Part shown: positions 4,203 through 27,794 of the stretch, piece by piece
Layout of the letters: each line of letters opens with the position of its first letter
Numbering within the stretch: the first letter of the stretch is position 1
Notes under the pieces: generated by a model
Told to the model about the DNA's origin: nothing
Database searches by the model: none
Seen by the model: the letters and a program-made list of their open reading frames with translations, nothing else
Translations under genes and position numbers: made by a program
Virus record (IMG/VR): IMGVR_UViG_3300010331_000030
Location: 1-31,079 of that record
Strand: one strand, 5' to 3'
DNA length: 31,079 bases
Origin: a virus

Positions 4203-4690
4203 TTAGCTCCTCCTATCAGTAAATCATGCATCTCCTGCTTATCTTTTATTTGCTTTTGCAATGCATGTTTATATCCTGTGCAATATCCATCTATTAATGC
4301 AGCAGTCATGTCTGTATTATTAATCCTGAGCTTGATCTTTGTTATTTCCAATACATGATCTAATATTTCAATTACATCATCTGCCTTTATCAGCAATGTC
4401 AGATCTTTTTCCGGCCCATCAATAAAATATTTCATCCTGTCATGCTGCTGCTCTGCTGTGCTTTTTGGCCTTGTCCCATCTTTATTGTTGATCATGTTGT
4501 CTCCTCCTTTGAGTTTGCTTTTTGTTAAATCAAGATAGGCCTGCTTTGTCAGAAAATATCCATCATCATCCACTTTATCAATTGCATCCATAACAGACTT
4601 TTTCTCAATCAGATCTGATGCATATATCTCTGCACCATGCACATCTAAATTATTAATTTTTTGTTTTAATGTTTCTTTAAAATATTTCAT
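4199..4690 (-). CDS. two-part protein, possible fusion with an internal start at 4495
   Basis: A 163-residue frame starting MKYFKETLKQK after AAAAGGAGGATCAG. Half-way along, AAAGGAGGAGACAAC precedes an in-frame ATG at 4495 (MINNKDGTRPKSTAEQ) with ideal spacing; the SD codes for LKGGD. The second half alone (99 residues) is the paralogue of 3855-4202. Either a stop codon was lost between two tandem genes, or one frame makes a long and a short product. Function unknown. Confidence 0.65.
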   Translation of the reverse strand: MKYFKETLKQKINNLDVHGAEIYASDLIEKKSVMDAIDKVDDDGYFLTKQAYLDLTKSKLKGGDNMINNKDGTRPKSTAEQQHDRMKYFIDGPEKDLTLLIKADDVIEILDHVLEITKIKLRINNTDMTAALIDGYCTGYKHALQKQIKDKQEMHDLLIGGAK

Positions 4691-23255: not shown

Positions 23256-24056
23256 TTATATCCACTGAGCATAAAGAGTAACATCAGCATTTGCCATCTC
23301 AAAGACTGCTGCTGCTGCATAGTCTGTGCCTGTTCCATCTGCTTTTGTATTCCATCCATCAAAAATCATATCAGTGAGCAGCAGAGTGCCCTGAGCTTTG
23401 ACTGTGACATCATCTCCAACTTTGTATGCTATTACATCCACAGGAGGCTCTCCTGCATCAGATCCATTGCCATTATAAATGACATTGTAGGCCTCGACTA
23501 AGGATGGAGCAAAATCTGCCCATGCATTTGATACTGCCTCAGCAACATCTCCAACAAAAGTCTCAACATAAAATCTTGGGACTCCTCCAATCATGACTGC
23601 ATTTGCTACAATTTCAAGCTCTGCATATCCATACTCATCAGCCTCATTATCTATCTCATAAGATAGGCCTTTGATATTTGTGCATTTTGGATATGCAACT
23701 TTTTTGACAACATTCTCAAATTCATCCACAAGATCTGCTGTCAAAATGAAATTTTTGCCTTTGGATGTTGGCCCATAACCATAAACCCCTGCAATAAGTC
23801 CCTTATTGTCAAGTCCATTGACTTCTCTTATGATTTCAACCGGAAATCTGCCTGCTAATGTGACAGTGTGCTTTATAGGGATTGCTTTTGACTCAGATGA
23901 TCCATCCTCAGGACATTTTTTGATGATTTCTCTCATCTCTGTCTCTCCTGATAAATTTGCCATACATGCAAATTTTTTGGATGCTCCTGCCACATCTCCT
24001 GTCAGAGCCTGCATACTTGCATTGCCCACTCTACCTACATCAAATGTTTCAATCAT
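23256..24056 (-). CDS. major tail tube protein with InlB B-repeat-like domain
   Basis: A 266-residue protein. Residues 1-185 are the tail-tube part (FDVGRVGNASMQALTGDVAG, a phi13/TP901-type major tail start, and GLIAGVYGYGPTSKGKNFIL). Residues 190-266 (YNVIYNGNGSDAGEP, FDGWNTKADGTGTDY, ADVTLYAQW) match the Listeria-Bacteroides/InlB B-repeat consensus and form a surface domain. Each tube ring would thus carry a decoration. ATTGGAGGTATTAAA precedes the ATG. No frameshift is needed here; the domain is a direct fusion. Confidence 0.9.
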   Translation of the reverse strand: MIETFDVGRVGNASMQALTGDVAGASKKFACMANLSGETEMREIIKKCPEDGSSESKAIPIKHTVTLAGRFPVEIIREVNGLDNKGLIAGVYGYGPTSKGKNFILTADLVDEFENVVKKVAYPKCTNIKGLSYEIDNEADEYGYAELEIVANAVMIGGVPRFYVETFVGDVAEAVSNAWADFAPSLVEAYNVIYNGNGSDAGEPPVDVIAYKVGDDVTVKAQGTLLLTDMIFDGWNTKADGTGTDYAAAAVFEMANADVTLYAQWI

Positions 24057-25481: not shown

Positions 25482-25512
25482 TAAAAAAATAAAGGAGGCA
25501 TCTCAGCCTCCT
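25482..25512 (-). terminator. terminator between the capsid and connector genes
   Basis: Minus strand: AGGAGGC, loop TGAGAT, GCCTCCT, then TTATTTTTTT. A 7-bp GC-rich stem with a good T-run, 12 nt after the Ig-domain stop. It lies inside the structural operon with no visible promoter after it, so it probably reduces downstream transcription and leaves capsid mRNA in excess, or is overridden by antitermination. Confidence 0.85.
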
Positions 25513-25524
25513 ATTTTGTTTTAT

Positions 25525-25800
25525 TTATACTGTCTTTGTGACTAAAATTGTATATACCTGAGAGGCTGTGCCCTCAGTCACTGTGATCTCAATCTCATTA
25601 ACCCCTGCCTGCCATGTGGCAGCAGTACCATTGAGATGAGGGACTCCATTGACCAAAATTGCAACCTCAGCAGACTCATCAGCAGTCACTGTGATCATAT
25701 TTGTTGCATTGACTGTCTCTGCTGTGTAGTTTAATACATCCGGATCAAAGTCCGGGATCAGTGTGAGAGAGCCAAGGCTCAAACTGCTGAGATGATTTAG
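25525..25800 (-). CDS. cadherin-like Ig domain, in-frame extension of the capsid gene
   Basis: After the capsid UGA the same frame continues for 91 codons: LNHLSSLSLGSLTLIPDFDP, ... LNYTAETVNA, ... VYTILVTKTV. This is a full cadherin-like beta-sandwich; the family starts with an LSSLxL...LxPxF motif. The first possible start, TTG at 25782, would remove LNHLSS and has no SD upstream. So the domain is best explained as a capsid tail made by UGA readthrough (total about 474 residues). A separate small decoration protein from the TTG is the alternative. Confidence 0.8.
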   Translation of the reverse strand, partial: LNHLSSLSLGSLTLIPDFDPDVLNYTAETVNATNMITVTADESAEVAILVNGVPHLNGTAATWQAGVNEIEITVTEGTASQVYTILVTKTV

Positions 25801-26949
25801 TCAGGCCTGAGGCACAAGTCCTGAGATATCAAGCAGTATAAATGCATTGTTATCTTTTGGAGTACCATTGCCATATAATTTGACAAGATAAACTCTCTCA
25901 TCCTCTAAAAATCTGTATTCATCTGAATACTCAATTTTTCCGGATTTTGCAGTGCCAAGTCCCATAAAATATTTATTTGGCAGTCCAAGGACAGCATTGC
26001 CTGCTGCAAGTGCTGAGGACTGAATGATTGTTGTCTCAATTGGAAATACATCTTTGATGTATCTGCCATCAAGTGTCAATCTGATTGTTGCAGGCATAAC
26101 TTTTGATAGATAGTCAATAGGATTAACTATCAGGATCAGCTCTGTGATTGCTCTGTTGACTCCATTGACTCCAACTGCAAGCTGAGCTGCAAGGCCTCCA
26201 TATGTGTCAGGATCAAAGTCAGTCACAACCTGTGCAACTTTTGCAGCATATCCGGTCACAGGATCAATTGCTGCTGCAAGATTCCTGATCATTCCCACAG
26301 GCTCAGTCAGGCCATCTCCTGAGATGATGCCATCTTCTAACCCATTGTAAAGAGCCTCCCCTAAAATGGATCTGACATATCTATCTAACCATGCAGGCCC
26401 AAGATCAAGCATTGCTTTGCAAACAGGCAGAAATGCTGAGAGCTTTTTGTGTCCAAGATCAATTTTTTTAAATCCTCCAACTGCCTCAGTCACGATCTCA
26501 GCACATAAAGTGTCCCATGTTGCCAAATTGCCTGATCCATTGTTAACTAAAAATTCAACCATACCGGATGTATTGACAAAATCAACTGCCTCAAGCAATG
26601 GATGCCCTGCCTCAAGATCCTCAAAGACAGCCTCAATGACTGTGAGAGGCATTGTGATTGAGACATCTGTCAGAGCCTGCCTTGGATTGCTTGATTTCAT
26701 TGCATCAATAACTGCCTGATAGTATTTGCTCTCCTCGGATGTCAGAGATCTGACTCCTCTGCCTGCAAGGATTGTGCTGTCCTGAGCAGAGATCATTCCC
26801 TTGGCCTCAGCCATGACTGCCTGCTGAATATTCTCAGCAAATTCATCCCATGCTCCCATGAGTCCCTCCTCATTGTTGTCTGCAATTGCCTTGCTCATCT
26901 TTGCCATGATTTCAGCCTTTTCATTTTTCATAGTGTCCAAATTAATCAT
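25801..26949 (-). CDS. major capsid protein, HK97 fold
   Basis: A 382-residue protein. Residues 1-70 form a helical N-terminal delta domain (MKNEKAEIMAKMSKAIADNN). Then the HK97-type shell: ALTDVSITMPLTVIEAVFED, GHKKLSAFLPVCKAMLDLGP, the DGIISGDGLTEPVGM loop, YRFLEDERVYLVKLYGNGTP. ATG at 26949 follows GGAGGG at long spacing (about 11); ATG at 26967 overlaps the protease stop but lacks an SD. The frame ends CAG GCC UGA CUA and continues open (see 25525-25800). Confidence 0.93.
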   Translation of the reverse strand: MINLDTMKNEKAEIMAKMSKAIADNNEEGLMGAWDEFAENIQQAVMAEAKGMISAQDSTILAGRGVRSLTSEESKYYQAVIDAMKSSNPRQALTDVSITMPLTVIEAVFEDLEAGHPLLEAVDFVNTSGMVEFLVNNGSGNLATWDTLCAEIVTEAVGGFKKIDLGHKKLSAFLPVCKAMLDLGPAWLDRYVRSILGEALYNGLEDGIISGDGLTEPVGMIRNLAAAIDPVTGYAAKVAQVVTDFDPDTYGGLAAQLAVGVNGVNRAITELILIVNPIDYLSKVMPATIRLTLDGRYIKDVFPIETTIIQSSALAAGNAVLGLPNKYFMGLGTAKSGKIEYSDEYRFLEDERVYLVKLYGNGTPKDNNAFILLDISGLVPQA

Positions 26950-26966
26950 AATTTTTTTACCCTCCA

Positions 26967-27794
26967 TTAATTATTATTTTTTGATATGTTTGTGAATAGT
27001 GCTTTGATTGTATGCTTAACAGGCTCAGGAACCGGATCAAAATCAGGCTCAGGAGTCTGCTCAGTATCTGTGATTGTTTGCTCTTGCTTTTGCTCAGGAG
27101 ACTCTCTCATCTCTCTTATCTGTGCAGCAATGGCCTTGTTATAATTGATTTTTGATGTCAGGGACTGATTGACTTTTTGCAGCATCTCCTCTGCCTTTGT
27201 CAGATCTGCATCCTGTCCTGAGATCTCATCACATAGACCAATCTCAAGGCACTGCTTTGCAGTCAGCCATGTCTCATCCTCAAGCATCTGCATCAGAGTC
27301 TCCTCTGAGAGCTTGTCTCCTGCCTTGGAGATATATGCTTGTCTGTTGCCCTCCATCAGCACATCCAAATCATCAGCAGCTTTTCTCAGCTCTTTGCTGT
27401 TGCCCAATGTCATAACCCATGCATTATGGATCATCATCATTGCATTGGATGGCATGATGATCTTGTCTCCTGCCATGGCAATTATTGATGCCACTGAGCA
27501 GGCAAATCCATCAATATGCACAATAACATTTGCAGGATGTCTCTTGAGCTGATTATAAATTGCTGTGCCCTCAAAGACTGATCCTCCATAGCTGTTGATG
27601 TATAAATTGATTTGCTTTGTATTTGGATATTTTGCAAGCTCAGTCCGGAAATAATTTGCTGATGTCTCTGAGTCAATAGTCTCTCCTGACCACCAATCAT
27701 ATCCATCTCCCTCGACATCACCATAAATAAACATGTCAAGCACATCCGGATTTGTTATTGATTGCTTGAGCTCCCAAATTTTTGACTTTTTCAA
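26967..27794 (-). CDS. ClpP-type prohead protease
   Basis: A 275-residue protein with the ClpP-like catalytic set: S100 in GFACSVAS, H123 in MMIHNAW and D173 in LEDETWLTA. YINSYGGSVFEGTAIYNQLK is the oxyanion-side motif. The C-terminal 70 residues are Pro/Glu/Gln-rich and may act as scaffold. It cleaves the capsid delta domain during maturation. The start is TTG at 27794, overlapping the portal stop as TTGA, with AAGGAGG about 9 nt upstream. Confidence 0.93.
   Translation of the reverse strand: MKKSKIWELKQSITNPDVLDMFIYGDVEGDGYDWWSGETIDSETSANYFRTELAKYPNTKQINLYINSYGGSVFEGTAIYNQLKRHPANVIVHIDGFACSVASIIAMAGDKIIMPSNAMMMIHNAWVMTLGNSKELRKAADDLDVLMEGNRQAYISKAGDKLSEETLMQMLEDETWLTAKQCLEIGLCDEISGQDADLTKAEEMLQKVNQSLTSKINYNKAIAAQIREMRESPEQKQEQTITDTEQTPEPDFDPVPEPVKHTIKALFTNISKNNN

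Follow-up and report, generated by a model that had tools for sequence, protein, structure and literature searches.

A capsid gene in the IMG/VR virus record IMGVR_UViG_3300010331_000030 closes at a UGA codon, beyond which the same frame continues into an Ig-like domain, and this raises the question of whether some ribosomes pass the stop and thereby place the domain on a fraction of the capsid subunits. The stretch of DNA analyzed, referred to here as the window, covers positions 1 to 31,079 of that record, and every feature given with window coordinates below lies on the minus strand. At the joint, the capsid frame reads CTT GTG CCT CAG GCC TGA CTA AAT CAT CTC AGC AGT TTG. The UGA, the proposed readthrough codon, occupies 25801..25803 and is followed by a C (UGA-C). 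The extension downstream of it comprises 91 codons (25528..25800), and a TAA at 25525..25527 would be the last stop of the readthrough product.

The gene ending at this UGA (25801..26949) encodes a major capsid protein of the HK97 fold with the C-terminus ...SGLVPQA. A profile search matched it to PF05065 (E=3e-11, 43.6 bits against a cut-off of 24.2), protease and portal genes adjoin it, and the capsid protein (Cps) of Listeria phage PSA is a homologue at 42% identity. The ATG at 26949 is preceded by the Shine-Dalgarno (SD) sequence GGAGGG (26960..26965), with an energy of -9.8 kcal/mol to the anti-SD; a second in-frame ATG upstream, at 26967, has no SD, and the true start is probably the former. 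Starting at ATG 26949, the capsid protein has 382 aa, and together with the UGA codon and the 91 further codons it gives a readthrough product of 474 aa, in line with the roughly 474 residues of the original prediction. Terminase, portal, and ClpP-type protease genes are located upstream of the capsid gene and a head-tail module downstream. This head and tail gene order, combined with integrase and S24-type repressor genes elsewhere in the window, points to a temperate siphovirus-like genome. The phage host is likely clostridial, as the capsid relatives stem from clostridial and other Bacillota genomes.

The extension had been described from the sequence as an unbroken continuation of the capsid frame that forms a complete cadherin-like beta-sandwich, and both parts of this description hold. 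After a 3-residue lead, the translated extension matched PF12733 (Cadherin-like) with an E of 2.9e-8 and 34.5 bits (gathering score 24.2) over positions 3-88 of the 89 in the profile. An AlphaFold model of the 91 residues returned a beta-sandwich with a pLDDT of 96.6 and strands from E4-9 to E79-89. The model of the full-length capsid-Ig fusion was of modest confidence (pLDDT 74.6, pTM 0.56), and it was left out of any placing of the Ig domain on the shell. Among the other ORFs of the window, at all but a few of which a further stop came within 50 codons, no capsid-like extension of this length was seen, and the frame stayed open past the stop for 33 codons at most. A long in-frame run was nonetheless rejected as evidence by itself; in relatives lacking the Ig domain, the frame can stay open for 80-149 codons and reach into the following gene. 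Chance does not account for a complete, conserved domain after the stop that has neither a start codon nor a ribosome-binding site of its own.

The joint was compared with its relatives in a scan of viral contigs, genomes, and phage records that covered about 194 distinct capsid loci. Of these loci, 63 are stopless fusions, 121 lack an Ig domain, and 6 were too short to judge. An in-frame stop precedes the domain in 2, the domain lies in the -1 frame in 1, and the last is a chimera. Both in-frame stops are UGA: one is in the window and the other in L003 (IMGVR_UViG_3300010331_000063), a lineage known from one contig. The joint of L003 reads GTT UGA AAG, its capsid is 70% identical to that of the window, and its Ig domain 52-53%. 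In both phages the UGA lies exactly 3 codons before Leu4, a residue invariant in the domain. An alignment of relatives had been proposed as a check on the original prediction, and it revealed the arrangement a second time, in this divergent lineage, with an in-frame UGA equally far from the domain. Among the 121 Ig-less relatives, only 12 use UGA as the capsid stop.

This result bears on the idea that a sequencing or assembly error replaced a sense codon in what is really an ordinary fusion gene. A single wrong base would suffice, and the contigs are metagenomic; however, the same situation recurs in a separate and divergent contig with a different linker. In addition, a second record, IMGVR_UViG_3300025147_000104, is identical to the window over 7,751 b, although the two may share reads. 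We consider such an error scarcely credible.

The extension has another form at L118 (= L174), from a Ruminococcus sp. MAG, where the Ig domain is in the -1 frame and a canonical slippery heptamer, A_AAC_CCT, directly precedes the UGA stop of the capsid gene. This combination was found only at L118/L174, whereas in the window and L003 the domain stays in the capsid frame and only the UGA intervenes. Since the frame is unchanged, an event joining the two parts in the window would have to be UGA readthrough. Stopless fusions, UGA, the -1 frame, and the +1 frameshift of PSA all occur at homologous capsid ends; by this comparison of sequences, C-terminal modules have been added repeatedly at this end of the capsid gene, through decoding routes that differ. 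An Ig domain in the +1 frame was also encountered, at L241, and was rejected; the capsid C-terminal segment there is repeated and frame-shifted, probably as an assembly or strain chimera.

A search of all viral contigs for the DNA pattern of TGA plus the Ig start returned the window-identical contig, L003, and six other matches; on scanning, the six yielded no capsid-Ig joint. When any codon was allowed at the stop position, the patterns turned up no variant with a sense codon there. Searches of genomes translated through stops pointed to L206, L213, and L221, and these candidates were discarded because no Ig domain follows the capsid; in L206 a TGA lies near the match start and L221 has internal TAAs. 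Two further variations were observed among the relatives. In L049 and L257, the capsid-Ig linker is enlarged by a short repeat (ELGVNV...) to 73 codons, the longest seen, and in L056 and L057 the capsid-Ig fusion is followed, some way downstream, by a second Ig-like domain in a different frame.

The Ig domain could instead be made separately, by reinitiation at a TTG (25780..25782) located 18 nt past the UGA, to yield an 85-aa decoration protein. No ATG or GTG is present at the beginning of the domain, and this Leu codon is the sole conceivable start of a free Ig protein. The TTG is close to the stop and is found at the same place in L003, where the product would also have 85 aa. Its energy to the anti-SD is -0.1 kcal/mol in the window and -4.9 kcal/mol in L003, where random sequence has a median of -3.2, so that the value in the window falls short even of that median; 27 of the 40 listed starts fall between -7 and -17.5 kcal/mol. 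The lack of an SD at the TTG, as originally claimed, is thus borne out. The position of the TTG is also informative. Counted from the UGA, strand A of the AlphaFold model spans residues 4-9 and residue 7 is encoded by the TTG, so that a protein started there would lack half of strand A together with Leu4, which lies between UGA and TTG and is invariant in 30 of 30 aligned Ig domains. This agrees with the earlier statement that the domain begins before the TTG. A lack of conservation between the two codons had been named as grounds for refuting readthrough, and with Leu4 conserved, readthrough is not refuted on these grounds. Finally, 14 of 54 stopless fusions, which need no start there, also encode the equivalent Leu by TTG; it is therefore an ordinary codon, and we dismissed it as a conserved start. 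A free Ig protein made in this way is improbable.

UGA can be the codon for selenocysteine and is the codon of the commonest stop reassignments, and we considered whether special decoding operates here through selenocysteine, suppression by a tRNA, or a host in which UGA is a sense codon. Stop usage among the 54 listed ORFs in the window is 25 UGA, 26 UAA, and 3 UAG, the Trp codon TGG occurs 103 times, and no tRNA gene, suppressor tRNAs included, was found in the window. The genetic code is taken as standard because UGA ends 25 of the 54 ORFs and no such tRNA is present; a recoded genome is ruled out, and UGA is an ordinary stop in other genes, as had been proposed. Bacterial selenoproteins carry a SECIS hairpin directly 3' of the UGA. 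No hairpin within 63 nt 3' of the UGA was more stable than those of shuffled sequences in either the window or L003, and no Rfam element matched around the UGA of the window, which led us to reject selenocysteine. Folding z-scores in the two UGA phages are near 0 for 63 nt and -1.3 and -2.9 for 103 nt. The folds are weak and unlike each other, with no shared stimulatory RNA structure 3' of the UGA, and the next base differs as well, being C in the window and A in L003. Special decoding of any of these kinds is very improbable.

Selection on the domain was evaluated by comparing the window with L003. The pN/pS of the Ig domain is 0.45 (95% CI 0.34-0.60; 0 of 2000 bootstraps reach 1) and that of the capsid is 0.30, with pS at about 0.67-0.69 and synonymous sites near saturation. 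When neutral decay was simulated to the same amino-acid divergence, a pN/pS of 0.45 or less was never obtained, and the frame remained stop-free in 9% of runs. Neither phage has lost any of the nine Ig positions that are invariant. As judged from these substitutions, the Ig domain has been constrained for most of its history, and the pN/pS gives no date for the UGA.

In the capsid tree, L084, a stopless fusion, joins the window and L003 in one clade (100/99) with no supported branching order among the three, and the UGA may therefore have had one or two origins. The Ig domain evolves faster in the UGA lineages, both of which have long end branches. This could reflect relaxed constraint, either as weaker constraint on a minor product or as decay. 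Linkers were measured from DI to the first Leu of the domain, stop included, and those at the UGA joints are 13 and 15 codons, the shortest of 46; all 44 fusions measured have at least 21. Such short linkers argue that the UGA joints are a single distinct type of joint and did not arise by chance twice.

These data weigh on the possibility that the frame is a remnant, in which an ancestral Ig fusion gained a UGA recently and independently in both lineages and any readthrough is incidental. The stopless fusion is the common state, with 63 loci, and L084 of the same clade is one of them; the trees do not show that the UGA lineages are monophyletic, and the long Ig end branches would fit. However, this scenario needs two separate events, each producing a UGA at an identical distance from the domain. 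Each UGA would also have to be too recent for other lesions to have arisen, yet the lineages are at synonymous saturation. Moreover, the two joints share a short linker unlike that of any fusion, and the constraint on the domain described above argues against a remnant. We regard a dead fusion as rather unlikely, although it is the main rival to readthrough.

Other features of these phages concern the genes around the joint. A terminator-like hairpin, AGGAGGC-TGAGAT-GCCTCCT then TTATTTTTTT, is located 3' of the Ig stop (25483..25512), a pattern that is no more frequent than in shuffled sequences. Hairpins of this kind stand after the Ig stop in all 3 phages of the clade, namely the window, L003 (about 4443-4475), and L084, and may cause the head-tail genes that come next to be expressed less than the capsid gene. 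After the head-tail connectors, a probable major tail protein gene (23256-24056) carries a C-terminal PF09479 (Flg_new, a Listeria-Bacteroides repeat) as an in-frame fusion, and the C-terminal end of its L003 counterpart looks similar.

We consider low-level readthrough of the UGA, yielding a minority of 474-aa capsid subunits that bear the Ig domain, to be the best explanation of this locus and a reasonably probable one. One capsid gene would thus give two proteins. Most ribosomes would end at the UGA and release the 382-aa capsid protein, while a minority would insert an amino acid, most likely Trp via near-cognate tRNA-Trp, and pass a short linker into the Ig-like domain of about 88 residues. 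The long form would be built into the shell together with the short one and expose the domain on the outside at low copy number, where it could have an adhesive or decorative role; the share of 474-aa subunits would be low and possibly growth-dependent. UGA is the leakiest stop in Escherichia coli and is decoded mostly as Trp (PMC11126739), and in-frame stops under purifying selection are reportedly widespread in bacteria (PMC7918605). The unchanged frame, the UGA of L003, and the fusion and -1 counterparts are consistent with the readthrough route that was originally suggested. They make it the best explanation and not a proof, because we infer both the act and the level of readthrough, and two recent parallel nonsense mutations are possible.

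In tailed phages, Ig-like domains are reportedly added to capsid or tail proteins via -1 or +1 frameshifts, in T3, Lactobacillus phage A2, and Listeria phages A118/A500 (described by Fraser et al. in 2006). As proposed for the window, a fraction of a major structural protein gains a C-terminal extension by recoding in these phages, and the extension is Ig-like in T3 and A2; readthrough of an in-frame stop, in contrast, is a route that was not listed for them. The closest relative among the recoded capsids is PSA Cps (major capsid a/b), which is made by a programmed +1 frameshift (PMC5009743). PSA shares with the window the homologous capsid, the protease-capsid order, and a short and a C-terminally extended capsid obtained by recoding near the stop. 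It differs in that the ribosome shifts frame, at a Pro codon (ACA_CCC) and in the presence of a pseudoknot, and in that the extension annotated in L203 is shorter, with cps a ending at 2673 and cps b at 2815. Such extensions have been noted to be indifferent to whether decoding is +1, -1, or in-frame (PMC5009743). The stopless fusions of clostridial phages and prophages (L265, L089, L084, L106) have the same capsid family and PF12733, with capsids up to 68% identical, but place the domain on every subunit through a linker of at least 21 codons.

For stop readthrough in tailed-phage capsid decoration, no case was found in the open-licence papers searched. The resemblance is to phage Q-beta, whose coat gene has a leaky UGA at which about 1 in 15 ribosomes insert Trp, giving the extended minor coat A1 at about 12 copies (PMC8067240). 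Both systems have a coat gene that ends in UGA with an in-frame extension. Q-beta, however, is a ssRNA phage with other coat and extension folds, whereas the phage of the window is tailed, has dsDNA, and combines a capsid of the HK97 fold with an Ig-like domain. As to upkeep by selection of the Q-beta type, the extension is found in two divergent lineages with an Ig pN/pS of 0.45, and the UGA is not shown by the trees to be monophyletic. We lean, somewhat more cautiously, towards a broader reading in which programmed UGA readthrough, and not frameshifting, doses the Ig domain on the capsid. Fusion, -1 frameshift, and UGA would then be interchangeable in the family, with the +1 frameshift of PSA as a fourth extension route, and the linker length would follow the route.

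If true, stop-codon readthrough would join the recoding routes that place Ig-like domains on a fraction of the shell proteins of tailed phages, as a DNA-phage match to the A1 strategy of Q-beta. The relatives that use fusion or frameshifting for the same domain and capsid would offer a natural comparison on why Ig copy number is controlled. Readthrough varies with growth conditions, which would raise the question of an environment-dependent Ig dose.
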